A program made the position numbers and the translations under genes. This document shows, in pieces, positions 6,214-21,773 of a stretch of DNA of 22,358 nucleotides (position 1 is its first letter; each line of letters starts with the position of its first letter). Under the pieces are notes generated by a model. That model searched no databases. It was given only the letters and a program-made list of their open reading frames with translations, and was not told where the DNA came from. The DNA is from a virus, in the IMG/VR virus record IMGVR_UViG_3300020203_000106, positions 1 through 22,358 of that record. One strand, given 5' to 3'.

Positions 6214-6220
6214 CTGACAT

Positions 6221-6252: not shown

Positions 6253-6271
6253 ACACCATATGGAGAAACGA

Positions 6272-6442: not shown

Positions 6443-6533
6443 CGTATTCCACACCTCTCAATAAGATGCGCATAGGATTTATTGATTTCTGTTGAAGTTA
6501 TCAGTACTGTACGCAAACAGTTTGGCTTACAGT

Positions 6534-6749
6534 ATGATGAACGACGATCCAATCAAGGACACTATGGACACAATCGCGGTTGCGTCCGGCCTCGCTGTTT
6601 TCCTGCAATGGCTACCGGCCCTTGTCGGCGTTCTAACCATTGTTTACACTCTATGGAGACTCGCTGCAGGGTTAGACCATAGAAAACGTGAAGGACTATG
6701 GCCATTCGCACCATTCGGTAGCGGTGGTCCTGGAAAACCAGAAGCCTGA
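6534..6749 (+). CDS. Small membrane protein (unknown; holin-like size)
   Basis: This is a 71-residue protein with a short acidic N-terminus (MMNDDPIKDT), an amphipathic stretch, then a hydrophobic segment around 25-44 (QWLPALVGVLTIVYTLWRL). A basic loop (DHRKREG) and a Pro/Gly-rich tail follow. Small one-membrane-segment phage proteins of this kind are often annotated as putative holins, but the lysis genes here are elsewhere on the other strand. The start is uncertain: there is no clear ribosome site before 6534, and an in-frame TTG at 6492 would add 14 residues. About 90 bases before it hold no gene that I can see. It precedes the phosphoesterase by 19 bases. Confidence 0.5.
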   Translation: MMNDDPIKDTMDTIAVASGLAVFLQWLPALVGVLTIVYTLWRLAAGLDHRKREGLWPFAPFGSGGPGKPEA

Positions 6750-6768
6750 ACAAAGCGCGGAGAGTCGA

Positions 6769-7986
6769 ATGACGAAGACCAATATCCACACCGGAACCTT
6801 ACATGATCCGGGGTACGATAATGTTATCAACCTTATGGATTACGCCGCAACCGACTGGCAAAAACAAGTTCTGCAGTCACTGTCCGAGACAAAGAACGCG
6901 CGGGAGACTGGAAGGATACTCAAGCTTGACTCAAGCCGGGTTTCCAAAATATTGCGAACCGTAAAGATAAGGGCAGCAAGTTCTGGGTTCGCGCCAGAGC
7001 ATGATTACACCCGGACGGTTCCCGATGGGTATACGGTAAAGGGAGTATCGACATATTACGACAGTGAGGGCGCCGTAAAGGGCCAATGGGTAAAGTCAGC
7101 CGCCGACCGCGAGAGGATGGTAGAAATTGCGCGGGATATGGTAGCTGACATTTGCGAAGGCGTTAGCAGGCTAGACCCCCTGCCAGAGCCAAAAACAAAA
7201 GTTCTGACTGATCTGCTCAATCTATACACAATGACTGACTGCCATATAGGGATGCTGGCATGGGGCAGAGAGTCCGGAAAGGACTGGGACCTGAAGATCG
7301 CTGAGGAAACACTATCTGGATGCTTTGCGGACATGCTGCGACGTTCGCCGGAGTCCGAAACCTGCGTTATCGCACAGCTTGGAGACTGGATGCATTATGA
7401 CAGCCTTACTCCGGTAACCCCATCATCCGGGCACATCCTGGATGCAGACTCGCGTGCAGGCAAAATGGTTTCAACTGCGTGCCGCGTTCTACGGTCTATT
7501 GTTGACATGGCCCTGGTCAAGCACAAGATGGTTCACCTGCTTATCGCGGAAGGCAATCATGATATGTTTGGTTCTCTGATGATGAGGACATTATTTCGTA
7601 TGGTTTACGAAAAAGAGCCACGAGTTCAGATGATCGAAAGCGAAAATCCATATTACGCTATGCAGTTCGGCTCGAACATGCTTGCATGGCACCATGGACA
7701 CAAGAAGGGCCTTGACGCCTCGACAGCGCTATATATGGCTAGTGTGTATCCCAAGATATTTGGTAGCACTGAATACCGCGTTATCCACTTTGGAGACAAG
7801 CACCACAGGAGCGTGAAGGAGTTCGCTGGCATTACGCTGGAGCAGCATGGAACGCTTGCCGCAAATGACGCATACGCTACACGTGGCGGTTGGAAGTCAA
7901 ACCAGTATTGCGAAGCGATCACATATCACAAGGAATTGGGCGAAGCCGGGAGGATCAGGTCCACTCCTGCAATGATAGGCATGTAA
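6769..7986 (+). CDS. Calcineurin-like metallophosphoesterase with N-terminal helix-turn-helix
   Basis: This 405-residue protein has two parts. Residues 27-66 (WQKQVLQSLSETKNARETGR, then ILKLDSSRVSKILR) look like a helix-turn-helix of the resolvase/sigma type. The rest is a metallophosphoesterase with TDCHIG (156-161), GDWMHYD (205-211), GNHD (262-265), HHGHKKG (308-314) and a later HFGDKHH, which supply the usual Asp/His/Asn metal ligands. Such phage enzymes are often placed next to replication genes and may be DNA nucleases or phosphatases; the substrate is not known. The ATG at 6769 was chosen for GGAGAG 5 bases upstream. The primase gene starts one base after its stop, so they probably work in the same process. 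Confidence 0.75.
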   Translation: MTKTNIHTGTLHDPGYDNVINLMDYAATDWQKQVLQSLSETKNARETGRILKLDSSRVSKILRTVKIRAASSGFAPEHDYTRTVPDGYTVKGVSTYYDSEGAVKGQWVKSAADRERMVEIARDMVADICEGVSRLDPLPEPKTKVLTDLLNLYTMTDCHIGMLAWGRESGKDWDLKIAEETLSGCFADMLRRSPESETCVIAQLGDWMHYDSLTPVTPSSGHILDADSRAGKMVSTACRVLRSIVDMALVKHKMVHLLIAEGNHDMFGSLMMRTLFRMVYEKEPRVQMIESENPYYAMQFGSNMLAWHHGHKKGLDASTALYMASVYPKIFGSTEYRVIHFGDKHHRSVKEFAGITLEQHGTLAANDAYATRGGWKSNQYCEAITYHKELGEAGRIRSTPAMIGM

Positions 7987-7987
7987 C

Positions 7988-8890
7988 ATGAACGCTCGGG
8001 AGATAGTTGCATCTCGTGGAGGCATATGGTCCGGACGGTACGGGGTATGTTCCTGCCCTGTCTGCCAGCCAGAAAGCCGCAAAGACCAGTCTGCGCTTTC
8101 AATTTCGGACCAATCCGGACGCATGCTGATGAAGTGCCACAAAAGCAATTGCGACTATGTTTCCATCCTCAAGAGCCTTGGAGTAAACGTCAACAGAACT
8201 GACGCTCCCACAGGGGATTATATGACGGCAATAAAGGATGAGGAAGCGCGCCGAGGAATGGAAGCAATCGTCACTTCAGAAAGGATTATGGGTGCGACGG
8301 AAAAAAGAAGTCATCCATACACAACCCGCAAAGGGTTTCCTGACAAAAGGTTCTCCGTCATCACGGTAATGAAACTCAAGAAAATAATGAATATACCACG
8401 TCCTTTGCGTGGCCTTGGAAGCAATGAATTGCTTTTGTGCGTACCGATGAAAAGTTATGAGGGCGATTTGAAGTCAATAGAGTTTATTTCAGCAAATGGA
8501 ATAAAGTGCTTTCTTCCTGGCGGTAAGCTTCAAAAAACTGCCTGCTGGATTGGCACTGAGGGGCCTATAATCATTTGCGAGGGCGTTGCCACCGGACTGA
8601 GCATATCGCGCTGTGCGGCCAACCTGGGGCTTCCTGTGATAGTTGCGTGTGCTGGAAGCGCTGCTAACATGCTAGGGTTGAAAACAAAGTCTTTTTTCGT
8701 CATGGCGGACAATGACAAGAGCGGGGCTGGAGAATCGGCCGCACGCAAGATGATGAAAAGCTACGTCATGCCTCCCGTTGTCGGAATGGACTTTAACGAC
8801 TACGAGTTAGCGCAACCACAGGAAGCCTCTGCTTTGCTTTCTTCGCTTTTGAGCGGCGCTGGGTTGCGGGCAGGCCATCCGACAATGTAA
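7988..8890 (+). CDS. Zinc-ribbon/Toprim DNA primase without a helicase domain
   Basis: This 300-residue protein is expected to make RNA primers. The N-terminus has a zinc ribbon: CPVC (23-26) and C50-x4-C55. A Toprim domain follows with the conserved acidic motifs ICEGVATGLS (196-205, Glu198) and MADNDKSG (239-246, Asp241/Asp243), ending near MDFNDYELAQ (267-276). It lacks the helicase half found in T7 gp4-type proteins, so unwinding must come from another protein. The last 98 bases overlap the end of the convergent DUF1064 gene on the - strand. Those bases encode only the non-conserved tail (roughly 269-300), so both genes can be real. Confidence 0.8.
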   Translation: MNAREIVASRGGIWSGRYGVCSCPVCQPESRKDQSALSISDQSGRMLMKCHKSNCDYVSILKSLGVNVNRTDAPTGDYMTAIKDEEARRGMEAIVTSERIMGATEKRSHPYTTRKGFPDKRFSVITVMKLKKIMNIPRPLRGLGSNELLLCVPMKSYEGDLKSIEFISANGIKCFLPGGKLQKTACWIGTEGPIIICEGVATGLSISRCAANLGLPVIVACAGSAANMLGLKTKSFFVMADNDKSGAGESAARKMMKSYVMPPVVGMDFNDYELAQPQEASALLSSLLSGAGLRAGHPTM

Positions 8891-9185
8891 TATCGAATCC
8901 ATGAATGGCCTTGAACAGTTTCGCCTTTAGCCGGAACTCTGGAAGTATCATCCCCTTGGCGTCATACACAATTCTCTTGCCGCCATCAATGTAAACAAAA
9001 TCGGCAACGTATGAGCAGACTTTAGTGCCGTTGACGATAAGGTCAAAGCGAACCTGGCGATCAAGGGACGATATAGCGCCAGCCTTTTGCAGGAGACATA
9101 ATTCCTGCCACTTCCTTGCCTCAAGTGCAGAGTCGAAAGTTATACCCTCAACCAAAGTCTTGTGATTACCATATTTGGTCTTCAC
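8793..9185 (-). CDS. DUF1064-family putative nuclease
   Basis: This 130-residue protein of the DUF1064 family, a PD-(D/E)XK-like group in phages, may be an endonuclease or junction resolvase. Conserved parts are KYGNHKTLVEGITFDSALEA (4-23), LQKAGAISSLDRQV (32-45), VADFVYIDGGKRIVYDAKG (60-78, with Asp62 and D-x-K as candidate active site) and FRLKAKLF (84-91). I chose the GTG at 9185: it lies just after the upstream stop (TAG at 9189-9187), has GGAAG about 7 bases before it, and gives the family's usual MKTKYGN beginning. An ATG at 9221 would add twelve residues. It is the last gene of the virion block and ends inside the primase gene on the other strand. Confidence 0.75.
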   Translation of the reverse strand: MKTKYGNHKTLVEGITFDSALEARKWQELCLLQKAGAISSLDRQVRFDLIVNGTKVCSYVADFVYIDGGKRIVYDAKGMILPEFRLKAKLFKAIHGFDITLSDGLPATQRRSKAKKAKQRLPVVALTRSR

Positions 9186-9186
9186 G

Positions 9187-11130
9187 CTATTCTTCCGGCT
9201 GGCTGTTCCCGATACCTGCATAGGCTGCCATGCCCTGATAAAGGTCAAGGATTTGCTGCTGACTGTGCCCGGCTGCCTGAAGCGCCTGAATGGCTTCACC
9301 TGCGGTTGCCGGGTCAAGCATCATTTCAGCGACACGAACGCGCACCCTGTTAGGCAGGGCTATACCCATCGAGACACGGTTCGCAATACCGGCCTTTGCA
9401 GCGCCACCAAGGGGAGAAAGGACACCCATAAAACCCGTAACGGCGTCACCAAAATTACGAACGTTTTGTTGGTCTTCCGTAATCGCACCACGACCAGTAA
9501 TAGCGCGCACGGAATCCACTCCCCTGCCACGTGCATCAATAGACGCTGAAACCCCGTCAAGGTCTTCAGGATTAACTATACGCGCAAGGCGATCACGCAA
9601 TCCGCCCAACCGCATTTGATTTGAAATACTTCCGGGGTTCTCGGTAGCCGCCCCTTGGAGACGATCAAGAGCGCCCTCCCGGAATCCCGCTGCCGATGTT
9701 ATGTTGGAAACAGGATCACGGGCGCCCTCTGGAATAGAAGCCTGGAAATTGTCCGGAGTCATGGACCCCAAAATTCCAGACGCGCCCTTGTCGGCTCCAT
9801 CGCCCCTTGCAAATTGTTGTCTATAGCTGGCCAGAGCGGGTCCATATGTAGGATGCTGCTGAGTAACCATATCAACAAGCAAGTTGACTCCGGGTGCGTT
9901 AACGCCCGATTCCTTGCTGTAGTGGGAGCGAAGTCTTTCCATCAAGTCTACTGTTACGTTACCACTCTCCATTGCTGCTCTATCTGACCGTGTTATACCA
10001 TTCACACCGTTATTACGAAGCATCTGATACATTGACGGAGTAAGAATTACAGTATTGGGACGAATATCGTTCATTACTTCAGTCAAAGCCCTGCTTGCGT
10101 CACGAGTTGTGACGTTAGAGCCTTGTGAAGAACCAAGCTGTTCTACATCCTGTCTTACACCGTCCCTGAACCTGGCCTCTGCTGCCTCTGAGCCAGCCTC
10201 AAAGGTATTTGCAGAGCCTGGCGCCTTAGCCGCAAACTGAGAGATTGCTTTAGCTTCTTCCGGATTCAAAACTTCGCCAATTAAAGGATCACGTCCTGTG
10301 AGACGGGAGAATTGAGCCATCCTTTCGGGAATATCTATTCCTATGCGTCTCGCAATTTCACCCGCAGCGGCAGTATCAACAAAAGAAGGAAACCGTGAAG
10401 TAACAGACTTTACACCGGCCCCAATAGCGTCGCCACCAACCTTGAGCGCAGGTCCGGCTGCTGCCATAATTGCAGCCTCCTCTACAGTTGGCGCCCTGCC
10501 TTCTGATATTGCAACCGTTGCGGCTCCGGCTCCAAGTCCTGTGGCTGCAAGTTTTGCAGCATTGGCGCCAAACTGCCCGGGCCGCAATCTGGCAAAGTTG
10601 CCCACCCCCTCAACAGCAGTCTTAAGCGCAGGAACGGCTGCTGCGACACCGCGACCAGCAACCTTGGCGCCAGAGGCTATTGCTCCACCAGAGCCAATCG
10701 CACCAGCTACGGCGCCGGTTCCCATAGCAAGCGGCTGTAGCTTTAATACTTCATCGCGGTAAGAAAGCATTGCCTCTTTGGCGTCTTCATCCGTCATCCA
10801 CGGATTCTCTTTTTTAAACTTCTTCCGAATGGCGGCATCGCCTACGCCAAAGGCTGCCGAGCCTGCTCCTACAACTTGGGCCCCAAACGCTTGAGTCACA
10901 CCGGAAACAAATCGGTCCAAAGGTGACTTTTTAGTTTTTGCAGAGCCCAATGTATCGCGCGCATACTGGCGCCCACCCTCAACATTTATCCGTGAGCGCG
11001 TAGCTGGGTCTTTCAGCTTTTCTTTCATGGTTGGCTTTACAAGACTGAAGCCATCCGGAAGGGGAGGGGAGGACCCGGAAGGGGGTGCGTCTTCAAGAGC
11101 GAAACCGGGAGGAAGCGGAGGAACAGGCAT
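9187..11130 (-). CDS. Putative ejection (internal virion) protein, 647 residues
   Basis: This is a large, Ala/Gly-rich protein and the last of three consecutive putative ejection proteins. It starts with a proline-rich tract in which a motif occurs twice (PPLPPGFALE, residues 4-13, and PPLPDGFSLV, residues 22-31). Hydrophobic Ala/Gly segments cover about 135-210 and could enter membranes; the remainder is polar and probably helical. P22 gp16, which is injected and helps DNA cross the membrane, has 609 residues and holds the same third place after gp7 and gp20. Sequence identity to it is not evident to me, so this is a call from position, size and composition. The ATG at 11130 overlaps the previous stop (TAATG) and has GGAGG upstream. 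Confidence 0.5.
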   Translation of the reverse strand: MPVPPLPPGFALEDAPPSGSSPPLPDGFSLVKPTMKEKLKDPATRSRINVEGGRQYARDTLGSAKTKKSPLDRFVSGVTQAFGAQVVGAGSAAFGVGDAAIRKKFKKENPWMTDEDAKEAMLSYRDEVLKLQPLAMGTGAVAGAIGSGGAIASGAKVAGRGVAAAVPALKTAVEGVGNFARLRPGQFGANAAKLAATGLGAGAATVAISEGRAPTVEEAAIMAAAGPALKVGGDAIGAGVKSVTSRFPSFVDTAAAGEIARRIGIDIPERMAQFSRLTGRDPLIGEVLNPEEAKAISQFAAKAPGSANTFEAGSEAAEARFRDGVRQDVEQLGSSQGSNVTTRDASRALTEVMNDIRPNTVILTPSMYQMLRNNGVNGITRSDRAAMESGNVTVDLMERLRSHYSKESGVNAPGVNLLVDMVTQQHPTYGPALASYRQQFARGDGADKGASGILGSMTPDNFQASIPEGARDPVSNITSAAGFREGALDRLQGAATENPGSISNQMRLGGLRDRLARIVNPEDLDGVSASIDARGRGVDSVRAITGRGAITEDQQNVRNFGDAVTGFMGVLSPLGGAAKAGIANRVSMGIALPNRVRVRVAEMMLDPATAGEAIQALQAAGHSQQQILDLYQGMAAYAGIGNSQPEE

Positions 11131-12662
11131 TATTCCACAGCCTCCCAAGGGGCGCCATTAACGCTTTTAATCCTTTCACCCTTAGCATTTTTGGCAAATC
11201 TTGTACCGTCTTGGGCACCGTCTTGGGCACCAGCGTTGGAACCGGCTGGGGCACCAGCTTTGGCAATGGTCGAATCAAACAGCGAAAGGAAGGACGAAAT
11301 GGAGCTATCAATCTGTTTGGCAGAAGAATTAGGGTTCGCTACAATTGATACGAGTAGTTCCAATTCCTTTGGTGTATCAGCAAGACGGGCGGCGTCCAAG
11401 CCGGGCAGGGTGCGCAACGCTTGCACAAGCGGAACAGTCGCAGACCTAATGTCCTGTAGCGCCGTGAAACGATCCGGAAACATAGCGGCATAAGCGGCGG
11501 CAACACCTGGGTCTTCCATACCACCGGGAGCAGCCATAGCAGCAGATATGGCACGCTCGGTGAAATTAAGTTCTTTGCCTCCACGAACGGCCCCGGCCTG
11601 TTTTGCCCTACCTAAAGCTGACTTAAAATTCTCTACGTAACTCTTGACAACTGCCGGGTCAGAGAATCCGCCCGTTTTACCTTCGGAACCGGAACCCTTG
11701 GGCCGGTTGCTACGGTTCGCCTGGCCAGTCCTCGCTTCCAAGAGGGAAATCTCCGCACGTTCCTTATCGGTAAGATCTTGGACTGGCGACTCAATCCATT
11801 TACCATCATTCATGTCATAGAGACCGCCGCCAACACTAAGATAACGATCCTTGCCGGACAGTGCACCACCCCCACCAACCATTGCAGAAAGAGCAGGAAT
11901 CCCACCTTGGTTATACGCATCCATTTGACTTTGAGTGAAAGTGTCTGGATTTTGTTCCAAGAACTTCTTCACTGCCTGTTCTTTATTCCCGGGATTGGAT
12001 TGAATTATTGATTGAAGCGCCTGAACAGCGCGGCCTGCACCGACAAGCTTTTCGTTGTCTCGTTTAAAATTCTGATTCTCAATAACATTGCCGGTTTCTG
12101 GATCAATTCTTGCTACGTCAGCAAAGTTTCCACCTGCAATCGCATCGTCAAGAGATTTTTGACGGCCTTGGTTATAGGTATTTTTATCGACACCCTGAAC
12201 TCTTGCTGCAGAATCTGGGTCAAGACGCTTTATTGCCTCAACGTCGCCGGTCGCCAGTGCGCGACGAAGCTGCTCCGGCGCAACGGAATCATTATAGTCA
12301 CTCTCCATCTGCTGAACGGAGTTGAGGCCCATGAGGGCACGGCCAATATTTGCGAACCCGTCCGCTGCGTCACCGCGAGTCCCACCCTTCGGAACGAAAC
12401 CCATAAGACCCGAGAAAGCACGTCCAGCTTTTGATCCAAACGATTCAGGAGCGACAGGGCCAACCGGCCTGTTGGAAGGGCCAACCGGCCTGCTGGAAGG
12501 GCTAACCGGCCTGCTGGAATGGCTAACCGACCTGTTGAGGGAAACAGGTTGCTTGTTTCCGGAGCCGGTATGGTTCTTTGACGGGCTCGCCTCTTTTGGA
12601 GAGCCGCTACTCTGCTTATTCCGGTTTCTGACAGTACCGATAAGATAATCTGGAAAGCTCAT
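11130..12662 (-). CDS. Putative ejection (internal virion) protein, 510 residues
   Basis: This is a soluble-looking, Ala/Asp/Gln-rich protein. Residues 10-75 are low-complexity Ser/Pro/Asn/Lys and hold four heptapeptides of the form RPVxPSx (44-71). Next comes a helical region with ANIGRALMGLNSVQQMESDY, a stretch rich in DPxT/DPDS motifs (145-195), and a C-terminal region with a small GAQDGAQDG repeat. Its length and place match P22 gp20 (471 residues), a DNA-injection protein, but I cannot point to diagnostic motifs. It is the middle gene of three likely ejection proteins and overlaps the next gene by one base. Confidence 0.45.
   Translation of the reverse strand: MSFPDYLIGTVRNRNKQSSGSPKEASPSKNHTGSGNKQPVSLNRSVSHSSRPVSPSSRPVGPSNRPVGPVAPESFGSKAGRAFSGLMGFVPKGGTRGDAADGFANIGRALMGLNSVQQMESDYNDSVAPEQLRRALATGDVEAIKRLDPDSAARVQGVDKNTYNQGRQKSLDDAIAGGNFADVARIDPETGNVIENQNFKRDNEKLVGAGRAVQALQSIIQSNPGNKEQAVKKFLEQNPDTFTQSQMDAYNQGGIPALSAMVGGGGALSGKDRYLSVGGGLYDMNDGKWIESPVQDLTDKERAEISLLEARTGQANRSNRPKGSGSEGKTGGFSDPAVVKSYVENFKSALGRAKQAGAVRGGKELNFTERAISAAMAAPGGMEDPGVAAAYAAMFPDRFTALQDIRSATVPLVQALRTLPGLDAARLADTPKELELLVSIVANPNSSAKQIDSSISSFLSLFDSTIAKAGAPAGSNAGAQDGAQDGTRFAKNAKGERIKSVNGAPWEAVE
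12462..12545 (-). repeat. Four tandem 21-base repeats inside an ejection-protein gene
   Basis: Units beginning with AACCGGCCTG on the + strand start at 12462, 12483, 12504 and 12525 (the last is AACCGACCTG). The 21-base period encodes a seven-residue repeat, RPVxPSx, on the - strand. The first two repeats transcribed are the most diverged. Such in-frame repeats can vary in number by slippage without breaking the gene. Confidence 0.9.
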
Positions 12663-12664
12663 TT

Positions 12665-13282
12665 TTAACCCCCAAACAGCTTGCCAAGGAAGCTTGCGTT
12701 CTTTTTCTGGGCCATAGTTTCAGCATGACCCAGGATGTTTTCATTCATAAAGTTACCCTCCGCCATATCCAGATCAGACTGTGCACCGGAAGCGTTCATA
12801 CCCATGGATTGTTGGTTCATAAGGTTGGAAAGATAGTTTCCAAACGACCCTTGGGCCAATTGTGAGGCATTATCCTGGAATACCCTGCCAGTACCGCTTG
12901 AGCCCAGAAGACCTCTTGCAGCAGCATTGGACGCGACGCCACCCATAGCGGAGTTCAAGGTATCTTGATAACCTGAGGATTCTCGAAAACGGTTAAGCCC
13001 CTCTGCCCCGGAAGTGTCTCCCGGTTCGCCGGTTCCAAGCAGGCTTCCAACAAGAGAGTTGGCACGACCACCAGTCTCTGCGTATGGAGTAAAACGGTCA
13101 CTCGCCTTTTTGAAAAACGGAAGTACCGCCTTACGGGCGTCCAGATAGCCCTTTCCCATGCGCTTTACCGCACGGTTTGAACTGCCACCAAGGCCCAATG
13201 CTGATCCAAACCGCCTCCAACCGTCAGCACTACCGCCGCCGCCCGCGCCGCCGAACATCCCCATGATTGCAGAAAAGTCCAT
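12665..13282 (-). CDS. Small virion/DNA-transfer protein, 205 residues
   Basis: This Gly/Ser/Asn-rich protein has the layout of small phage DNA-transfer proteins. It has a glycine-rich N-terminus with GGAGGGGSADGW, then KKASDRFTPYAETG (58-71), FRESSGYQDTLNSAMGG (99-115), NAAARGLLGSSGTGR (119-133) and a Gln/Asn/Met-rich C-terminal helix region. The combination F-x-x-S/D-P/G-GYQ followed by AAARGLLGSG-T is one I associate with podophage injection proteins. P22 gp7 (229 residues) is the likely counterpart by size and order. It has its own 59-base leader with AGGA 9 bases before the ATG. It is first of the three ejection-type genes. Confidence 0.55.
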   Translation of the reverse strand: MDFSAIMGMFGGAGGGGSADGWRRFGSALGLGGSSNRAVKRMGKGYLDARKAVLPFFKKASDRFTPYAETGGRANSLVGSLLGTGEPGDTSGAEGLNRFRESSGYQDTLNSAMGGVASNAAARGLLGSSGTGRVFQDNASQLAQGSFGNYLSNLMNQQSMGMNASGAQSDLDMAEGNFMNENILGHAETMAQKKNASFLGKLFGG

Positions 13283-13306
13283 TATTCTAATTCCTATTTG
13301 TAAACA

Positions 13307-13335
13307 AACATAGCTTATTAACCAAACGGTTGCAA
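13307..13335 (-). promoter_or_regulatory. Possible weak promoter before the ejection-type genes
   Basis: In the 59-base gap between endolysin and the 205-residue gene, the - strand has TTGCAA (13335-13330), 17 bases, then TATGTT (13312-13307). Each hexamer matches the sigma70 consensus at four of six bases. It could give extra transcription of the ejection genes, but the match is weak. Confidence 0.25.
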
Positions 13336-13341
13336 TAGCGT

Positions 13342-13767
13342 CTATTTCTTCCAGTCATCACGGGAACCGGGGTAAAACCACCGTGCTACAGGGCCTTTGC
13401 GCATGTCCAGATGGATAAACGTCTTACCGTATCCAATGCCGGTGAACCCAAGGCTATCCGCAAGGTTTGACAGTATGTGTCGGTCATGTCCTTCAAGGCT
13501 TATGTCTGCCGCCAAGTCAAGATGCTGTGAGGCTTTTGCCCCTCCCACCTTCTCGTTGTGTATCTTGCAACGATGGCCGGAGTTTACCTTGAAAGGTTTT
13601 CCGACAAGAAACCGAAGCGCCTGCAGTTTGTCAAGGAACTGCTTGTTATGGACATACTGACCGCAATGAGGGCAGGCAAGCTCTGAGGGCGTAAAGTTAG
13701 GCCACCTATCCCGCCAGTAATCATTGGGGATAGGCGCCTTGGCGTATATGCCGTTTGGAAGTGCCAT
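13342..13767 (-). CDS. Endolysin, peptidase M15 family
   Basis: This 141-residue zinc peptidase of the M15 (D-Ala-D-Ala carboxypeptidase-like) family should cut peptidoglycan cross-links at lysis. Visible are FTPSELACPHCG (25-36, with a CxxC pair), SGHRCKIHN (63-71), the zinc motif SQHLDLAADI (80-89: His82, Asp88), and FIHLDMR (117-123: third ligand His119). There is no signal peptide, so it needs a holin to reach the wall, and the holin-like gene lies two bases upstream. No good ribosome site is visible; the ATG follows the holin stop closely (TAGTAATG), so it is probably translated by re-initiation. No spanin genes were found beside it. Confidence 0.9.
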   Translation of the reverse strand: MALPNGIYAKAPIPNDYWRDRWPNFTPSELACPHCGQYVHNKQFLDKLQALRFLVGKPFKVNSGHRCKIHNEKVGGAKASQHLDLAADISLEGHDRHILSNLADSLGFTGIGYGKTFIHLDMRKGPVARWFYPGSRDDWKK

Positions 13768-13769
13768 TA

Positions 13770-14024
13770 CTATTTGAATACAGGGGTCTTGGTGAAGAAT
13801 CGAACAACGGTGTTGACGATAGCAAGAATACCCATAATTGAGGCAATAATAATGTCAACATTGGTTGCAATCGTGTCAAACGATTCGCCAACCGAAGCTT
13901 CAGTGACGCCTGCAACTTCCGCCGCAGGGATGACGCCGGACGCGACACCAAGAGCAACGAAAAGGGTTACGGCCTGAATAACGAGGGTGCGCCAGCCGCG
14001 AATTGCAGCAAGAAATTGAGTCAT
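13770..14024 (-). CDS. Holin-like membrane protein
   Basis: This 84-residue protein has two hydrophobic segments: about 12-33 (RTLVIQAVTLFVALGVASG) and 57-77 (DIIIASIMGILAIVNTVV). An acidic amphipathic loop joins them, and the tail is basic (RFFTKTPVFK). Size, topology and position directly before the endolysin fit a two-segment holin that permeabilises the inner membrane at the time of lysis. GGAG lies 8 bases before the ATG. A strong promoter is in the 65-base gap upstream. It resembles no holin I can name, so the call rests on topology and context. Confidence 0.7.
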   Translation of the reverse strand: MTQFLAAIRGWRTLVIQAVTLFVALGVASGVIPAAEVAGVTEASVGESFDTIATNVDIIIASIMGILAIVNTVVRFFTKTPVFK

Positions 14025-14061
14025 GGTATAAGCTCCGAAAGGATTGCTGAGGGGTTCGGTA

Positions 14062-14089
14062 ATTATACCAGGTTATCTGGATAAGTCAA
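14062..14089 (-). promoter_or_regulatory. Strong sigma70-like promoter for the lysis genes
   Basis: Reading the - strand, TTGACT (14089-14084) is followed after 16 bases by a perfect TATAAT (14067-14062). It starts right after the stop codon of the fibre gene and ends about 38 bases before the holin ATG. The spacer contains CCAG and CTGG separated by five bases, a short dyad that could be an operator, though it is too small to insist on. It would let holin, endolysin and ejection genes be transcribed independently of the upstream structural genes. Confidence 0.65.
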
Positions 14090-15034
14090 CTATCTACCGT
14101 AAGTAAGAAGGCGACCGCCAGTCATGTTTCCTGATCCGCTATTAGATACAAAACGGATAGCGTCGATAGGAGATGTTGAGCCAACAAACAGGTAATTATC
14201 GCTATTTGAGCCCGATATGATTTTAGGTCCGGTTAGCTTGCAGCCGAACACTGTCTGCATACCTGAGCGGGCCGCGCTAGAGGCAGTTGTATGCAGGTTT
14301 ACGTTCGGCTCCGGATCGGTGGCGCCGCTGCCCACAAACCTTGTGTAATCTGAAGCTCCACTAAAGAAAGTTGCGCCATTATCAACGCTTACGACAAGCG
14401 CTGTTGCGGCTGAAACTGATCTTGTCATGTCAATGCACACGACCATTATATCATCGTATGCAGAAAGGCCGGTAACAGTGCGCGTTGCAATAGGAGAGGC
14501 GACAGTAAAGTCCTCTACGAGAACCCAAGCCCCGCCGCCGCCGCCTCCGGGGATAGTGACAAGAGCCTTGTTTCCGCCTGCGTTAGTTACAAGAACGCCT
14601 GCGCCAGCGAAGTTCAGGGCTGTTGCTGCTGCAACTATGCTTGTGCCCTCATCCTCTACCAGGATGCTGCCGCCTGATCCGTTGGCGGCTGATGTTAGCC
14701 TACCCTTGGCGTCTACTGTGATATTGGATGATGTATATGAACCGGGACTAACAGCGGTATCAGCAAGTGATAGAGTTATGTTACCAGCGCTCAAGGCTGC
14801 AGGAAGCGGTAGAATCTGGCCTGCTGTGCCACCGATGGTGCGAGCAAGTAGGGCCGCAAGGGCTCCGTCTACCGTGTTTATATCATTCTGAACTTTAACA
14901 ACGGATTGCACAAGGTCCACGAGATTGCGCCATTGCCGCGCGAAAAAGTCTGTTGCCCTGCCGCTTTTGTCTGTGATTTCAGCGTAAGCAATAGGGCCAA
15001 TCCGCTTTTCATTAGGGGTTGGAGGAGTGGCCAT
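14090..15034 (-). CDS. Tail fibre-like protein, 314 residues
   Basis: This is a modular, beta-rich protein typical of phage fibres. A helical N-terminal part (25-65, FFARQWRNLVDLVQSVVKVQ onward) may trimerise or attach it to the tail. Then come a short fibre motif PGSYTSSNITVDAKGRLTSA (97-116), a VEDEGTSIVAAATALNFAG segment (126-144), a six-glycine linker (163-168), and a C-terminal beta domain from about 170 that may be the receptor-binding head. It lies directly after the second tail-hub piece and overlaps it by one base (TAATG, with GGGGG before it), so it is probably made with the hub. No enzymatic motif is visible. Confidence 0.65.
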   Translation of the reverse strand: MATPPTPNEKRIGPIAYAEITDKSGRATDFFARQWRNLVDLVQSVVKVQNDINTVDGALAALLARTIGGTAGQILPLPAALSAGNITLSLADTAVSPGSYTSSNITVDAKGRLTSAANGSGGSILVEDEGTSIVAAATALNFAGAGVLVTNAGGNKALVTIPGGGGGGAWVLVEDFTVASPIATRTVTGLSAYDDIMVVCIDMTRSVSAATALVVSVDNGATFFSGASDYTRFVGSGATDPEPNVNLHTTASSAARSGMQTVFGCKLTGPKIISGSNSDNYLFVGSTSPIDAIRFVSNSGSGNMTGGRLLTYGR

Positions 15035-15831
15035 TAGCTATCCCCCAGCAGGACCTGCAGGGTTTGAATACGGCGCAAAGAGCCCTCATCCTGAATCTGG
15101 TAAACACGGCCCGGCGATGTGACGGACCCAAGGTCATAGAACATGACGTTGGCGTTCCGAACACCCGGAACCGTGCTGACTGTCTGGTTAGCGGACCACG
15201 TTGAGCCTTCATCATCGGAATAGCGCAGATTTACGTTGCCGCCACGTCTGCCAATCGAACCGAAAAGCTGTACCTCCGGATTAGAAATAAAACCACGTTC
15301 CTGACTTTCGAGACGGCCCGTCGAAATGAACGTATTGGTCCTGAAGCTATCATCAAAAATAGATTCAGGGTTCACAATGTTCAGGGCGTTGCCAAACATG
15401 GTGGAGGCATAATACTTGTCATTCCACCGGACATGGAACTGAGCGTTCCAGAAAGGAAAGTCCGCTGTTCTCCATTCCGTCCATTGGCTGGTCATCAGGT
15501 CATATACAAATGTGCCACGGCCCCGGATATGAATACCGTAGAAAACGTGTCCATCAATGTCATACGGGAAAGCATTAATTGCCAATGGCTGCTCCGGAAA
15601 CACTCCGGTAGCCCCAACAATAACAACTTCCTCCTCATGAACTCTTATCACGGTGCCGAACCCCAAATCGGTTCCAATGAAGACCGAATGTTCGTTCTGG
15701 ACAAAGATGTATTCCGCAACCAAACCGCCAACAGAAACGACATTGAAATCAGATACACGGATAGCGCCAATGCCGCCCATGACTGACGTAACATTACCGT
15801 CTGAAACCCTGATGGTGTCTGAGGCTGCCAC
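15034..15831 (-). CDS. C-terminal half of a split gp10-like tail hub protein
   Basis: From about residue 84 this 265-residue protein matches the second half of P22 gp10-type tail hub (phage stabilisation) proteins: INAFPYDIDGHVFYGIHIRG, then GTFVYDLMTSQWTEWRT, LRYSDDEGSTWS and FYDLGSVTSPGRVYQI. Residues 1-80 are different: four short beta repeats of the type I-R-V-x-D-x-N-V-x-S-V (starting near 7, 24, 42 and 62). The start is a GTG two bases after the stop of the LamG gene; AGGA lies 10 bases upstream. The missing N-terminal half of the hub is encoded about 2.1 kb upstream at 19197-17974. The two halves minus the extra domains total about 475 residues, close to the 472 of P22 gp10. Confidence 0.6.
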   Translation of the reverse strand: MAASDTIRVSDGNVTSVMGGIGAIRVSDFNVVSVGGLVAEYIFVQNEHSVFIGTDLGFGTVIRVHEEEVVIVGATGVFPEQPLAINAFPYDIDGHVFYGIHIRGRGTFVYDLMTSQWTEWRTADFPFWNAQFHVRWNDKYYASTMFGNALNIVNPESIFDDSFRTNTFISTGRLESQERGFISNPEVQLFGSIGRRGGNVNLRYSDDEGSTWSANQTVSTVPGVRNANVMFYDLGSVTSPGRVYQIQDEGSLRRIQTLQVLLGDS

Positions 15832-15835
15832 ACTA

Positions 15836-17977
15836 CTACGTTGTCCTGTTTACTCTGACTTTGCTACCTAGCATTGCTGTAGTAGTCCACGCAACGCCGC
15901 CATTGGAGCTAAAAAGGTCAATCTGCCAGGATGGTGTTGCAGACGGTGAAGTATCTGCACCATTGCTCACCGCAAGGGCTGAGTCAACAAAGCCGGGCTG
16001 AACTGTAGCGCCACCTGTGCCAAAGACAGAGCGCCGCGTGAACAGTGACACAGAGTCTATGCGAGTGATGCCGCGAGGAATACGCTCAAGCCCATATTCG
16101 CTGGCAACTGGAATATTAAGGCCGCCCGTGAGTGTTCCGGCTCCGGAAATGACTGCCCCGGTTACTGTAGTCGTGAAGACAAGGGCGTTACCAGCAGTAC
16201 CGGGAAGAACGGCGACCATGCGTCCGATTGCGCCCGGAAGCGGCTCTCCTGAGCAGTCAGGGTTGATTACAGTTCCGGTGCCGTAGAGTGTTCCAATACC
16301 GGGACCAAAGTTGATCGCCGCAAGAAGGTTACTCATGGTAGCGTCTGTGTCAACACCAATCAGAATATCATTCGCGGCTGCAAGCGCTGTGCGGAAACGG
16401 TAGGTTGTCGGTCCTACTCTCACGTTCTCATCGTTCAGCGGATTGGCCGTCAGCTCGAATGTGCCGCTGGCTGAAGTTAGCTGTGCGAATACAAACGTGT
16501 CATCACGGCCACTCTTGTCTATAGACTGGAAGCCAAAGAAGCCATCATCCGTCACAAGAGCGGTTGCGATTCCGCGAATACTGACGATCCTGCCAGCGCT
16601 GGACTGGTCGATTGTAAAGCCATTATCCCATCCAATTAGAAGTTGGACGCTGGCAAAACTTGGGTCTCCCGCAACATCACGTGGGAAAGCAGTAGTAATA
16701 GGCGTGTATTCGGCGATGTAGCGGCCAACTCCTACCGTAAACCTGGCCTCATCCATCCAGCCACGGAAAGAATCAGTAAGGGTTGAAGTACCGCTTTGGA
16801 CTGCAGAGACCGACATTACGGAAGTGGCATTAAAGTATGTGGCACTGTCAGCAATGGCCGGGCCAACGCGCACGCCATCAATGAACAGACGATTGAAGCC
16901 TCCGGTGCGCGACACGGCTATACTGTATTTCCGCCAACGGACCGGGCTAAACGGGAAGTCATGGACAACGACTACCGTTCCGGTCGTGCCATCCGTAGAG
17001 TATTCAAATCCGAGGAACGTGTTGCCGCCAGACTCGTACAGGAACAGGCGCCATGAACGCTGGTCTGTCCCGCTTCTCCACTTGGCCATAAGGGTTTGGG
17101 TAGCGCCAGCAGTTGGAACTGTATCCCACCGGAAGTTGCCTTCTGCAGTAAAGGCGCCAGACCCAACTTCAAGGCCAGCAGAGTCGGGAACCGAAAAGCC
17201 TTCATCACCCGACAGGAGCGATTGACCAACACCATTATTAAACGTGCGGCGGGCCACATAAGGCCATTGGGCAGCAGAAGAATCAGAGTTAGGGCGAAGC
17301 AGGTAATTGGCTACACCGCCCGTAGGATACCATGTATTCTGGAAGGCAGTTGCTGTGCTTTTGACGGAAAGGTCAGTAAAGTAGAAATCCTTTCCAGCAA
17401 CAGCGACACCGCTGTTCTGGCCGCGTGGAACGATGATAGCAATAGTTCCGGGGATGACAAGAGCACTTACACTGAGTAGTGTAATACCTGCCGCGTCCCT
17501 GATTTGAACCACCCCGCTACCATTGCCCATAAGAACACGAAATTCCAAGAACTTCCATTCTCCGGAAGTTATGATAATATCTGTAGTTTCAGCAATGACT
17601 GTTCCTGATGAGTTACGGAAAGCAATACGTCCGGTTGGCTCGACATTGAAATAGCACAACACCAAGTTACTTGAGTCATGCAGGCGAATTTGAACAAGGT
17701 TTGACACAGACGGAAGGGCTGGAAGGTAAAGAGCTATTGCAAGGAATATCTCGCCAATAGCAGACCCCTGAATGTTGCCGCGAAGGTCTCCGGTGGTTCC
17801 GATGGTATCAATATAGAAAGCTTTCTGTCCGGTGCGGGCCCCAAAGGATGGGATTACAACCTGAGCGTTGCCGGAAGCGGGTCCGGTTGGCACCGCCGCC
17901 CAAGGGCCAAGCATACCGTTTACTTCGCCCTCACCCACTACATAGCGGTCAGCAGCATCAACAAAAACCAAGCTCAT
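15836..17977 (-). CDS. LamG/lectin-like tail protein inserted between two hub genes, 713 residues
   Basis: This is a large beta-rich virion protein, probably exposed on the tail for binding sugars or the cell surface. Residues 1-215 look like one jelly-roll lectin domain. Residues 235-435 are a second, clearer concanavalin A/LamG domain ending in the typical WMDEARFTVGVGRYIAEYTP (407-426). Residues about 507-622 form a separate module (ENVRVGPTTYRFR, then LIGVDTDATMSNLLAAIN and YGTGT) that also occurs inside the upstream hub piece. The last 90 residues are unassigned. The ATG overlaps the upstream stop (ATGA), with GAGG about 9 bases before it. Sitting between the two halves of the hub, it probably attaches to that structure. 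Confidence 0.65.
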   Translation of the reverse strand: MSLVFVDAADRYVVGEGEVNGMLGPWAAVPTGPASGNAQVVIPSFGARTGQKAFYIDTIGTTGDLRGNIQGSAIGEIFLAIALYLPALPSVSNLVQIRLHDSSNLVLCYFNVEPTGRIAFRNSSGTVIAETTDIIITSGEWKFLEFRVLMGNGSGVVQIRDAAGITLLSVSALVIPGTIAIIVPRGQNSGVAVAGKDFYFTDLSVKSTATAFQNTWYPTGGVANYLLRPNSDSSAAQWPYVARRTFNNGVGQSLLSGDEGFSVPDSAGLEVGSGAFTAEGNFRWDTVPTAGATQTLMAKWRSGTDQRSWRLFLYESGGNTFLGFEYSTDGTTGTVVVVHDFPFSPVRWRKYSIAVSRTGGFNRLFIDGVRVGPAIADSATYFNATSVMSVSAVQSGTSTLTDSFRGWMDEARFTVGVGRYIAEYTPITTAFPRDVAGDPSFASVQLLIGWDNGFTIDQSSAGRIVSIRGIATALVTDDGFFGFQSIDKSGRDDTFVFAQLTSASGTFELTANPLNDENVRVGPTTYRFRTALAAANDILIGVDTDATMSNLLAAINFGPGIGTLYGTGTVINPDCSGEPLPGAIGRMVAVLPGTAGNALVFTTTVTGAVISGAGTLTGGLNIPVASEYGLERIPRGITRIDSVSLFTRRSVFGTGGATVQPGFVDSALAVSNGADTSPSATPSWQIDLFSSNGGVAWTTTAMLGSKVRVNRTT

Positions 17978-19197
17978 GTAACGGTCCTCAAGCGAATTTC
18001 TTCTTCAATGTTATGGGGCGTCAGGCGTTGGCCAGAATTATCGCGTCCGATCCCCTTATCGTCGATGAATATCACACGATCCTCAAGAACCAAAGCAGTT
18101 CCCGGGATAATTCCATAACTCATTTGACGGCCCTGGATTGGGGCGAATGGTGTATCCGGGTCGCCTGTAGCGCTGAATGGCTCTATCGTGGAGCGACCAA
18201 GAGCCCAGAATATAGAGCCAACGGTCACAACCTGAAGCACTTCATCCGGCTCGGATTCAGCCTCGAAGAATACCTCTACCCAGTATTCAGCAGGACGGAT
18301 TGCATACATACGCTGGCTGGCGGCAACAGAAATAATCACATATGCAGAAACGATTGTGACGGAAACCGCTGATTGAGACCCACCCTCCGGAACAGGGACG
18401 GGGATAAGAAGGTGAAGGCCACCGTTGGCAAGTGTACCACCGCCCCATGTAAGGTTGGCGGAAGTCTCTGTTGTGACAATCGAATCACCTGCCACACCCG
18501 CAACAATTGCTTGAACGGAAAGGCGGACGCCAGCAACACGACGCACTTCTACGTTAGGGTTTGCGATCAGGGCTGAGGAATAGGTTCCACCCGGAGTCCC
18601 TGTTGCACCGATTGCCGCACCAAGGTTCTGAAGCGAACCAAGAGTTGTCAGACCGAGAAGCACAAGCCACGGATTCGCAATCGTTCCAGCCGGGCTTCCA
18701 GCGTTTACGCCAGAAGCAACAAACTGATAGTAAACAGAATCAACGCGCACCACATCGGTAGCAACCGGATTGGCAGTTGCGTCAAGGTTTCCAACCGCCT
18801 TGCTAAGCCCCTCATAGTAGAAAAGCGTGTTTCCGTCCGCAAGCCATAGACGGGCGACACCGGGAGAGGCTTGATATGTCATGGAAACCGGGCCGGGATT
18901 TGAGTTCATGGCCCCGACAATCGGTATGGAAGTAGTTCCATTCCAACGAAATAGCTGATTACCAGAGGCAACAAAAAGGTCACCACCCAGAAACCCCGGC
19001 TGCGAGAAGTTCCCCCGCATTGGACCATTACCGAACGTGCGGAAGAAGTCTGTTCCCGGACGGGAAACAAGGGCTGTATCGTCAATAGTTGAAGACGGAT
19101 CACCCTCGAAGAATCGGTTCAGCAATTGCAGTTCAACACTGCCGGTGTAGTCCCGAGTGTATGTGCTGCGAGTAAGGGAAACCTTCTCTTTGGGCAT
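17974..19197 (-). CDS. N-terminal half of a split gp10-like tail hub, with an extra inserted domain
   Basis: This 407-residue protein resembles the first half of P22 gp10-type hubs. It has SRPGTDFFRTFGNGPMRG (45-62), beta-propeller-like strands (GGDLFVASGNQLFRWNGT), and, after an insertion, GSIFWALGRSTIEPFSATGD (327-346), VIFIDDKGIGR (375-385) and RLTPHNIEEEIR (391-402). Residues about 145-266 (VVRVDSVYYQF, then LGLTTLGSLQNLGAAIGATG and TTETSANLTWGGGTL) are a separate module that resembles one in the adjacent LamG protein. The protein ends where an intact hub would continue; the continuation is encoded at 15831-15034. The ATG overlaps the gp4-like stop (TAATG). In P22, gp4 and gp10 also adjoin and close the portal. 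Confidence 0.6.
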   Translation of the reverse strand: MPKEKVSLTRSTYTRDYTGSVELQLLNRFFEGDPSSTIDDTALVSRPGTDFFRTFGNGPMRGNFSQPGFLGGDLFVASGNQLFRWNGTTSIPIVGAMNSNPGPVSMTYQASPGVARLWLADGNTLFYYEGLSKAVGNLDATANPVATDVVRVDSVYYQFVASGVNAGSPAGTIANPWLVLLGLTTLGSLQNLGAAIGATGTPGGTYSSALIANPNVEVRRVAGVRLSVQAIVAGVAGDSIVTTETSANLTWGGGTLANGGLHLLIPVPVPEGGSQSAVSVTIVSAYVIISVAASQRMYAIRPAEYWVEVFFEAESEPDEVLQVVTVGSIFWALGRSTIEPFSATGDPDTPFAPIQGRQMSYGIIPGTALVLEDRVIFIDDKGIGRDNSGQRLTPHNIEEEIRLRTVT

Positions 19198-19919
19198 TAG
19201 TAGTAGGCGCCCGTATCGCTATTTGTTGCAAGGCTGGAATCCCATAGAATGTCAGGATCAGCGCTACTGTTTTCTGACAAATAGCGTCCAGTGTGGCGGG
19301 ACCGGATAGACTGGTAAATCTCTGACGTAATTGGGCTTATTTCCTTACCGTACCGAGGATTGAGGCGCATCGCCAGTTCAATGACAAACATATCATCAAA
19401 CTCATCCGGGAATGGGATGCTTTGCAGTTGCGTCAAGGGGGAGACACGTATCCATTCAGCAAGGTCACGCCGGAACATAATGCTGGTGTTCTCAAGGCTG
19501 GTGGAGAGAACAAGAACAGAGTTTCCAAGGATATTATTTCCATTGCCATTCAATGTCAGCGGGAAAGAGGCCAGGCTACCCAGAACGTCAATGAATGTAA
19601 GTCTTGCGCCATCACCCGGCGACGGTGGAAGCAGGAGGGTTCTGGCAGCGTCCGACAAAAGATTGACGTAACAATTCTGTGGAACGGCCCGATTGTCCAT
19701 GAATGGAGTAAAGTTCTTCAGCGTAATGCCGCGCTGCTCTCGCACTGCCGCTACGTTACCCAGCCAGATTGTCTGCACTGCAGGTCGGATATGACGTGAA
19801 ATAATGCCATTCAGGATTGGCAGGGCTTCAGCAATCTGCGCATCAGACGGGGGGCGGTTGATATCCAGAATCTGGCTCTCCCGGAATGACCGGGTAATAA
19901 TATCAGAGAGAGTTGACAT
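19197..19919 (-). CDS. P22 gp4-like tail accessory (head-tail adaptor) protein
   Basis: This 240-residue protein begins MSTLSDIITRSFRESQILDI and has the helical ALPILNGIISRH that marks gp4-type adaptors. Later comes FPLTLNGNGNNILG, then a conserved-looking stretch RRDLAEWIRVSPL and FPDEFDDMFVIELAMRLNPRYG. In P22, gp4 binds below the portal and receives the gp10 hub; here the hub gene starts at the stop codon of this gene, which supports the call. GAAGG lies 8 bases before the ATG. The portal gene must lie further right, outside the window. The family match is from memory of the pattern, not an alignment. Confidence 0.65.
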   Translation of the reverse strand: MSTLSDIITRSFRESQILDINRPPSDAQIAEALPILNGIISRHIRPAVQTIWLGNVAAVREQRGITLKNFTPFMDNRAVPQNCYVNLLSDAARTLLLPPSPGDGARLTFIDVLGSLASFPLTLNGNGNNILGNSVLVLSTSLENTSIMFRRDLAEWIRVSPLTQLQSIPFPDEFDDMFVIELAMRLNPRYGKEISPITSEIYQSIRSRHTGRYLSENSSADPDILWDSSLATNSDTGAYY

Positions 19920-19923
19920 TCAG

Positions 19924-20379
19924 TTAGCCTTCAACATCAGTGTATGTTGTAATTTTATTGTCAAGAGACCCTACATCAATGCCGTATTGTGCGCAACCCA
20001 TACGAAGGGCCGCAACCAAGGCGGCTTTACCTGCTGTGGCACCCATGTCCAGCGCACCTAATGCTATTTCGGAGCCGGACCCAGACGAATATACGTGATC
20101 GCCAGGAACAATCGTGAAACCGCTTGCATCGCAAAGGTAAACCGCTTCTGAAGTAAAGGCTATTCCGAACATATTTTCCGCCTCATCCATATCATATGGA
20201 ATCTCCATGTCGTGCTCTACCCATTCCCGAAAAAGCTTTGCGTCAATAACTGAGCCAGCCATAGCGCCCATTGTTGTTTTTCCGCGATAAATCTTGCAGG
20301 CGGCATAAAGGTGCTTGCCATCAACAGTGGCGGAGCGATCAGCCGCCATTACACCATCACGATAAACGATAATAGTCAT
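19924..20379 (-). CDS. HslV/proteasome-like Ntn-hydrolase
   Basis: This 151-residue protein looks like a small N-terminal-nucleophile protease of the HslV/20S proteasome fold. Removal of Met1 would expose Thr2 as the nucleophile. Asp14 in MAADRSAT (11-18) and Lys29 in CKIYRGKTT (28-36) fit the Asp17/Lys33 pair of proteasomes. AMAGSVIDAKLF (39-50) corresponds to the HslV GFAGGTADAFTLF, and YSSGSGSEIALGAL (97-110) to the GSGG turn. It is shorter than HslV (about 175). Lying among head-tail genes, it may process virion proteins or act on host proteins. Phage proteins of this type exist, but I know of no settled function. GGGG lies 5 bases before the ATG. Confidence 0.7.
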   Translation of the reverse strand: MTIIVYRDGVMAADRSATVDGKHLYAACKIYRGKTTMGAMAGSVIDAKLFREWVEHDMEIPYDMDEAENMFGIAFTSEAVYLCDASGFTIVPGDHVYSSGSGSEIALGALDMGATAGKAALVAALRMGCAQYGIDVGSLDNKITTYTDVEG

Positions 20380-20393
20380 ACATACCCCGAATT

Positions 20394-20705
20394 TTACTCT
20401 GAGGGTTTACCATATCCCGGTATTGATCCAGTCTCAACAGCCAGCTCAAACAATTTACGTGGAGAATAATTGGCATGGATTTTATGGCCAGCCTTGCGGA
20501 GCGCCATAATCAGGGAAGCCTTGCTATGACCGGCCCATGAATCGGGGCTATCCGGCAATGGGGGCGCACCGGGTTCCACAACCTTGTCTCGGTCGTCGTA
20601 ACAAAACCAACCTTCCGGAACCTCCTCAAGTGAGTTGAAGATAGCAGAACTACCGCCCGGACCGTAATACCATGCTGGCCAACGAATAACCTGATTAAAA
20701 GCCAT
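20394..20705 (-). CDS. Small virion-associated hypothetical protein, 103 residues
   Basis: The N-terminus RWPAWYYGPGGSSAIFNSLE, followed by EVPEGW, follows a pattern seen in many small phage proteins encoded among head genes (P-W-Y-GP-G-S-F-s-EDVPEGW). A proline/acidic linker follows (EPGAPPLPDSPDS), then a SAP-like helical hairpin SKASLIMALRKAGH and SPRKLFELAVETG (75-110 counted from the longer frame). The function is unknown. I chose the ATG at 20705 because it has a GGTGG purine tract about 8 bases upstream and matches the usual first residues; a longer in-frame start at 20747 adds residues unlike the family. It overlaps the end of a 35-residue membrane peptide by 11 bases. Confidence 0.7.
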   Translation of the reverse strand: MAFNQVIRWPAWYYGPGGSSAIFNSLEEVPEGWFCYDDRDKVVEPGAPPLPDSPDSWAGHSKASLIMALRKAGHKIHANYSPRKLFELAVETGSIPGYGKPSE

Positions 20706-20802
20706 CACTGTCACCACCGTTAATTTGACCCAAACAAAGCCCAACAAATAGCAATACCATTGCTAGCCATGAGCAAAACCCAAAAAACCAAAATTCCCAC
20801 AT
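20695..20802 (-). CDS. 35-residue single-span membrane peptide
   Basis: This very short gene lies in the 112-base gap between two virion genes. The peptide starts MWEFWFFGFCSWLAMVLLFV and continues GLCLGQINGGDSDGF. It is one long hydrophobic helix with four aromatic residues near the start, then a short polar, acidic tail. GAGGG stands 4-5 bases before the ATG, and the TAA overlaps the next gene's start by 11 bases, an arrangement that couples their translation. There is no lipobox (VGLC does not fit). Possible roles are a small membrane anchor, lysis modulator or superinfection factor; none is shown. Confidence 0.6.
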   Translation of the reverse strand: MWEFWFFGFCSWLAMVLLFVGLCLGQINGGDSDGF

Positions 20803-20817
20803 AATACCCTCGAAAGA

Positions 20818-21114
20818 TTAAACGTCTATCAGGAGCCCGAAAAGGGTTGTCTCTCCCGCAACACCATCCTCAAGGACTCGTATCCAGTAAAGCCCGGCTG
20901 AGGCCGTATCCTTGATAAAAACATGCCCGTCAGACTGCACCTGAGGATTCATGGAAAGAACACTGTTTGCGTTAGTCGGGGCGCCTGAGGCGGTGACGCC
21001 AATCTGCCAGGATCGACTCGTTCGGTTACGAATCTGCAGGTACTTCGGGTTTGTTGCAACCAGCGTCCACCCTGCCTGAGGACCAATATTAACGCTTGAG
21101 GTAGTAAGAGCCAT
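20818..21114 (-). CDS. Small beta-rich virion protein, 98 residues
   Basis: This short protein made mostly of beta strands begins MALTTSSVNIGPQAGWTLVA, with YLQIRNRTSRSWQIGV and a C-terminal YWIRVLEDGVAGETTLFGLL. The pattern resembles small phage proteins that may decorate the capsid or form part of a fibre. It has no catalytic, membrane or signal features. AGGA lies about 9 bases before the ATG. It follows two fibre-like genes after a 68-base gap that may hold a promoter. Confidence 0.55.
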   Translation of the reverse strand: MALTTSSVNIGPQAGWTLVATNPKYLQIRNRTSRSWQIGVTASGAPTNANSVLSMNPQVQSDGHVFIKDTASAGLYWIRVLEDGVAGETTLFGLLIDV

Positions 21115-21147
21115 GGGATTTTTCCTGGGTCAGAATGGAACAGTCAA

Positions 21148-21176
21148 GGATTACTTTACTGCTGGGGTTGTGTCAA
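21148..21176 (-). promoter_or_regulatory. Possible promoter in the gap before the small beta-rich gene
   Basis: On the - strand a perfect TTGACA (21176-21171) stands just after the stop of the fibre-like gene, but 17 bases later the sequence is TAATCC (21153-21148), a poor -10 box. Only the -35 half is convincing. I see no terminator hairpin in this 68-base gap. Confidence 0.25.
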
Positions 21177-21182
21177 CTCTTT

Positions 21183-21773
21183 TCATATAGGGACAAATCC
21201 TCCATATACTGCCAGACCAGACTGGTCCCATCCGGTCATGGTCTGGGTCGCGGGCATAATCGCCGTTGTGCGGCTCTTGGAAGCCGAGGTTGTTACAGAT
21301 GCATTATGACTAGGCAATGTCGTGTAAATCAGCAGGTCTATACTTTGAAAAGTCAGAAAGTAATTCACGATTTCTAAGGCAGAGGCATCGGTTACGTTGG
21401 AAGACACAGAGACCAGCGCGGATTGGTTTAATGCAAAGTAGTACAGTTGACCGGCGACCAGAGTGACGTTGGTCGTCGTCACCTGGTGCAAGCCGACAAC
21501 CGTACCGGAATCTAAGGCGCAATCGGTCAGTAGTGTTCCGGTTCCGCTATAAATCCCGACAAAGACATTTGCCGCAGTTACGACGCCGCGCACCCAAAAA
21601 ACTCGGTTGATCGTAACATCTGCTCGCGCGACGAACGCGGTCAGATAATCCCGGTTTATAACCCCAACGTTGACAGCAGTGGCGGTGCTCATTCTGCGCA
21701 CACTATACGGAACCAAAGGAAGGTACGGCAGATTGCCTCCCGCTTCTGGAAAAATTGCTTCCCAAGTGCTCAT
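21183..21773 (-). CDS. Beta-rich fibre-like protein, 196 residues
   Basis: This Thr/Val/Ser-rich protein is likely to be a beta-sandwich such as a fibre tip or carbohydrate-binding domain. The middle part VFVGIYSGTGTLLTDCALDS and LVAGQLYYFALN alternates hydrophobic residues in the way of phage receptor-binding heads. The N-terminus (STWEAIFPEAGGNLPYLPLV) may attach it to another virion part. It begins with an ATGA overlap with the preceding gene, so the two are probably subunits of one structure. No enzyme motif is visible. Confidence 0.55.
   Translation of the reverse strand: MSTWEAIFPEAGGNLPYLPLVPYSVRRMSTATAVNVGVINRDYLTAFVARADVTINRVFWVRGVVTAANVFVGIYSGTGTLLTDCALDSGTVVGLHQVTTTNVTLVAGQLYYFALNQSALVSVSSNVTDASALEIVNYFLTFQSIDLLIYTTLPSHNASVTTSASKSRTTAIMPATQTMTGWDQSGLAVYGGFVPI

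Follow-up and report, generated by a model that had tools for sequence, protein, structure and literature searches.

In the virus record IMGVR_UViG_3300020203_000106, a promoter-like site is located between a fibre-like gene and a gene pair for a putative holin and an M15 endolysin, and this site is probably a promoter of the host RNA polymerase, of the sigma-70 type with an extended -10 element, that would add transcripts of the lysis genes. The window analysed is the entire record of 22,358 bases. The site reads TTGACT-16-TATAAT and occupies positions 14089-14062 of the minus strand, where the stop codon TAG of the fibre gene (14092-14090) abuts the candidate -35 hexamer TTGACT (14089-14084), which is followed by the spacer TATCCAGATAACCTGG of 16 nucleotides (nt; 14083-14068) and the -10 hexamer TATAAT (14067-14062). 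The hexamers match the consensus at 11 of 12 positions (TTGACT at five of six to TTGACA, TATAAT at all six), the spacer is inside the range of 16-18 nt of sigma-70-type promoters, and also the optional TGn motif of extended -10 promoters is present as TGG at the end of the spacer (14068..14070). The original prediction had letters and coordinates right and left the strand unstated. As a promoter, the site is of an ordinary, known kind: with TTGACT, a spacer of 16, TGG, TATAAT, a predicted leader and a probable ribosome-binding site it resembles the extended -10 promoters of bacteria and phages without any difference in sequence.

With a weighted matrix of E. coli-like frequencies (with an arbitrary bonus of 1.5 bits for TGn), the site ranks first among 44,644 positions on both strands with 16.9 bits, the runner-up being a site of 14.1 bits within a gene for a protein of 713 amino acids (aa). 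The claim that it is the best promoter in the window thus holds by weighted score; by plain count it is a tie, as TTGACA-16-TGTAAT at 13-40 of the plus strand also reaches 11/12. In windows simulated at order 1 and order 3 (60 per order, spacers 15-19), both strands together had 0.40 and 0.62 sites of at least 11/12 per window, and 0.00 and 0.02 when TGn was included. Of 8450 simulated 66-nt stretches on one strand per order, 2 at order 1 and 1 at order 3 reached the 16.9 bits, and when the 65-nt gap that holds the site was shuffled 5000 times, no shuffle reached its score. The gap shuffles were scored with plus-strand base frequencies although the gaps of the window are on the minus strand, so that this site has 17.4 bits there instead of 16.9 and a second one, described below, 11.6 instead of 11.0; shuffled and real gaps were scored alike. 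A consensus scan listed 23 promoter-like sites in 5000-22358, with 14.8 in shuffles (standard deviation 3.9), and TTGACT-16-TATAAT was the sole 11/12 site in that range; in 1-5200, it listed 7 sites, with 6.4 in shuffles.

Also the position fits a promoter. Among 15 junctions between 16 late-strand frames chosen by the analyst, four have gaps of more than 20 nt (68, 70, 65 and 59 nt), and the 65-nt gap with the site is one of them. It stands ahead of a gene pair whose members are 2 nt apart, and it contains GGAG (14033..14036, minus strand), read from the sequence as a probable ribosome-binding site, at a fitting distance of 8 nt ahead of the ATG of the membrane-protein gene. Of the four longer gaps, only this one has a strong site: the best scores of the others were reached by 119 (before 21114), 4980 (before 20747) and 254 (before 13282) of 5000 shuffles, so that a promoter signal before 21114 and 13282 is at most suggestive, and the gap before 20747 has a better site of 9.6 bits when the scored stretch is extended by a few bases into the preceding gene. 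The site in the gap before the ejection genes is TTGCAA-17-TATGTT (13335-13307, minus strand; 11.0-11.6 bits), which is present in the related contig L022 as well and is possibly a weak second promoter. Sequence, position and chance tests thus support well that there is a promoter ahead of the lysis genes, and the original interpretation as a whole is partly supported.

The site in related contigs

When viral_contigs was scanned with one alignment and with five proteins singly, six contigs turned out to have structural genes in common with the window; the remaining loci from the lysin scan share the lysin, one of them (L013) also short pieces of the fibre. In the phage collection, the 3 kb around the site had no DNA match. 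The exact 28-nt site was found elsewhere in viral_contigs in a single contig, L023, which is 99.5% identical to the window in the aligned part. In L022 (97-99% identical), one base of the 28 is changed, TTGACT to TTGACG, and TTGACG-16-TATAAT is still a strong site. In the more diverged contig L021 (66-75%), the genes of the fibre, the two-helix protein and the M15 lysin follow each other as in the window, with a gap of 64 nt, in which TTGACC begins 3 nt past the fibre stop and is followed by CTCTGGCAATAAC, with TGG downstream. The records behind L025 and L026 have connectors 62% and 63% identical to that of the window, and in these the two-helix gene (50% and 45% identity) adjoins the gp7-like ejection gene with no lysin between them; the L025 record encodes an M15-type peptidase elsewhere on the opposite strand, and a search for three families gave no match in the L026 record, which is possibly a fragment. 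The sixth contig, L027, stops short of the lysis region. The strong site thus seems to go with a lysin in this slot, but it does so in only two of three lysin-bearing relatives, both of them near-twins of the window.

Upstream regions of 700 nt were compared for M15 lysins at 13 of 14 loci (L011 was excluded, as its match begins at base 9), and the pairs L002/L003, L005/L006, L012/L013 and L014/L015 reduce the loci to nine groups. The observed score was reached in few of 200 simulations for L002 (1), L003 (0), L012 (0), L013 (2) and L008 (4), and in many for L009 (44), L010 (60), L004 (103), L005 (118), L006 (113), L007 (156), L014 (164) and L015 (165). An upstream site reached in at most 2% of simulations is thus found in three of the nine groups and not in the other six, and a strong promoter-like site ahead of M15 lysins is neither general nor unique.

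Transcription of the lysis genes and alternative readings

If the site is a promoter, the host RNA polymerase, or one with a phage factor, would read it and transcribe leftward from about 14055, over a leader of about 30 nt, into the genes of the putative holin and the M15 endolysin, and would run on into the ejection genes. On the minus strand, the consensus scan listed no terminator-like site in 14062-12665, the first one downstream being at 12442-12421 within a 510-aa gene, and therefore the site can supply transcripts to the lysis pair as well as to the ejection genes; a terminator just downstream had been named as the finding that would speak against the promoter, and the suggestion that the site may also feed the ejection genes is possible on these grounds. 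That it uncouples the lysis genes from the structural genes is unsupported. The only terminator-like site nearby upstream (14388-14373) is weak (6 pairs, 3 of them G-C) and lies within the fibre gene, and the scan total of 21 is at the level of shuffles (19.4, standard deviation 4.3). L021 has a terminator-like site at 4579-4596, in the corresponding part of its fibre gene; the two fibre genes encode similar residues there, which may explain that the site is shared. Partial termination at 14388-14373 is conceivable, but as nothing clear stops them, transcripts from upstream can probably reach both groups of genes as well, and those from the site would supplement this read-through within the late operon. 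The leader folds no better than its shuffles (z 0.09; 96 of 200 shuffles fold equally well or better), and there is therefore no case for a leader switch.

Several observations weigh against a promoter function. In the gap of L021, the consensus scan listed no promoter-like site, the best score, 6.7 bits, is equalled or exceeded in 1078 of 5000 gap shuffles and in 26-30% of simulated 66-nt stretches, and also over the 700 nt ahead of its lysin, where this contig was compared as L004, the best site is at the level of chance (103 of 200 simulations); L021 may have kept the -35 hexamer and the TGG, and its site as a whole cannot be told apart from chance. No good promoter site precedes the homologous membrane-protein gene in L030 (G001) and L031 (G002): the best has 6.2 bits in L030 (2253 of 5000 shuffles), and L031 has no gap at this place and its best site, of 7.4 bits, is within the preceding frame, although both also have no lysin in that slot. 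A promoter function presumes, moreover, that the main sigma factor of the host favours the usual consensus, and a search of genome_contigs with the second connector piece confirmed no relative (70 stretches matched the pattern, none was confirmed) and therefore gave no host or prophage clue. Finally, a strong constitutive promoter ahead of lysis genes poses a problem of timing that these data do not solve. From the diverged relatives it could be argued that the site is a chance or relic match that is not used in infection, and that transcription of the lysis genes begins at a late promoter further upstream, as in P22-like phages. According to PMC8022706, the late operon of P22 is served by one late promoter, and the same is assumed for phage L. 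The window resembles these phages in that P22-like connector and ejection genes are encoded in one direction, and it differs in that its lysis pair is between fibre and ejection genes and has a promoter-like site of its own. As none of the gap shuffles reaches the score, and as near-perfect hexamers, TGn, spacing and placement all coincide, such a match has a small but real probability.

It has also been considered that the promoter serves chiefly the ejection genes downstream, with the lysis pair merely passed through. The membrane-protein gene of L030 and L031 is directly followed by the gp7-like gene with no lysin, and no terminator-like site precedes the ejection genes of the window, but a good promoter site is absent from this position in both, and a separate, weaker promoter-like site (13335-13307) stands ahead of the ejection genes of the window, so that this is quite improbable. 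The claim of a repressor site concerned a CCAG-N5-CTGG dyad (14068..14080, strand-neutral) within the spacer, on which a phage repressor would delay lysis. A repressor bound between -35 and -10 would be expected to block the polymerase, and a device of delay would be useful ahead of lysis genes, but the arms have only 4 bp, and some inverted repeat of this kind (4 bp, loop 3-8) is found in 7.5% of the 16-mers sampled from the window. The dyad has a single copy in the window, the part of the genome covered here, where 0.36 are expected and at least one copy occurs in 32 of 100 shuffles, it is not found in L021, which alone among the diverged relatives has this cassette, and its CTGG arm coincides with the TGG of the extended -10 element, which alone explains it. 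The dyad is identical in L022 and L023, which says little because the aligned DNA is 97-99.5% identical. A role as operator is unsupported by these findings, and a repressor-timed promoter is very improbable. Holins can themselves delay lysis once transcription has begun, and therefore no repressor is required.

There is, further, a slight chance that the strong promoter came with, or arose through, the entry of the M15 lysin into the place that separates the ejection genes from an old membrane-protein gene, which would have made a self-contained lysis unit within a P22-like late operon that in more distant relatives has neither the lysin nor the promoter at this place, possibly with a factor that reads the spacer and holds the unit back early. 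Phage P1 is a myovirus with late promoters of a phage-specific type, unlike the site of the window. The lyz and lydA/lydB operons of P1 have late promoters of their own (PMC9025707), in which P1 would be like the window, and lysis genes with an own promoter are therefore a known arrangement. If the site of the window is used as an additional sigma-70-type promoter, its P22-like late operon would have a second promoter close to the lysis genes, and this would be relevant to how the timing of lysis could change while the structural genes are left untouched.

Surrounding genes

The plus-strand genes of the window extend from 71 to about 8,890 and include sliding-clamp-like, single-strand binding, helicase-like, exonuclease and primase-like proteins, and the late genes are oriented leftward, beginning at 22,348 and extending down to about 8,800. 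On the minus strand, the order is a connector piece, the 713-aa protein, another connector piece, the fibre, the site, an 84-aa protein, the M15 endolysin and the gp7-like ejection protein. The fibre-like protein (314 aa; 14090..15034) matches a PHROG tail-fibre family in residues 66-146 (1.8e-7), and the gene of the P22 gp7-like DNA ejection protein (12665..13282, minus strand like the others) is recognized by PHROG 598 (1.7e-14) and, below the cut-off, by Pfam P22_gp7 (0.00045). The endolysin is a 141-aa M15 peptidase (13342..13767, minus strand) with matches to Pfam PF08291 (1.7e-18) and to PHROG endolysin (6.9e-28). There is no good family match for the putative holin: the 84-aa protein (13770..14024, minus strand) had no Pfam match at E <= 1 and no NCBIfam match at E <= 0.01, and its best PHROG holin match has an E of 2.2. 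Its homologues have weak holin scores (PHROG holin E 0.25 in L031; Pfam Phage_holin_10 E 0.19, below the cut-off, in L021). It is a putative holin by its position and by two hydrophobic stretches noted by eye in the translation, a role that is made less certain by L030 and L031, where the homologue is beside the ejection gene and has no adjacent lysin.

The only record of the phage collection that was matched at E <= 1e-5 by the first connector piece and the gp7-like protein is Pseudanabaena phage Pan3 (ON968454). These matches are partial (33.8% identity over 31% and 39.0% over 40% of the query), and Pan3 differs in that its annotated lysozyme is elsewhere, after the tail spike.

On the minus strand of the window, two genes divide between them the P22-like connector profile phrog_578 (head closure Hc3), with profile positions 1-279 in 17974-19197 and 291-452 in 15034-15831. 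The 713-aa gene is between the two pieces, an order that recurs in L021, L022, L025 and L026. One segment of the encoded 713-aa protein is similar to part of the first connector piece (28-34% identity in L022, L025 and L026). In L025, there is an extra frame of 154 aa between the homologue of the 713-aa protein and the second connector piece.

Early and late genes converge at 8793-9317, where their frames overlap, and no intrinsic-terminator-like site was listed on either strand in 8,800-9,300. At the other end of the plus-strand genes, the TTGACA-16-TGTAAT site at 13-40 is located shortly ahead of the first early gene and is a possible early promoter. The gene at 71-1027 (plus strand) encodes a DnaN-like sliding clamp, with a match to Pfam PF02767 above the cut-off (5.1e-10) and further matches to TIGR00663 (1.7e-15, below the cut-off) and a PHROG processivity factor (2.8e-28). 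It is followed on the same strand by the adjoining genes 1048-1512 and 1509-2045, which encode similar proteins of the hexapeptide-repeat type that have, as judged by eye, a common C-terminal part and whose best PHROG matches are of unknown function.
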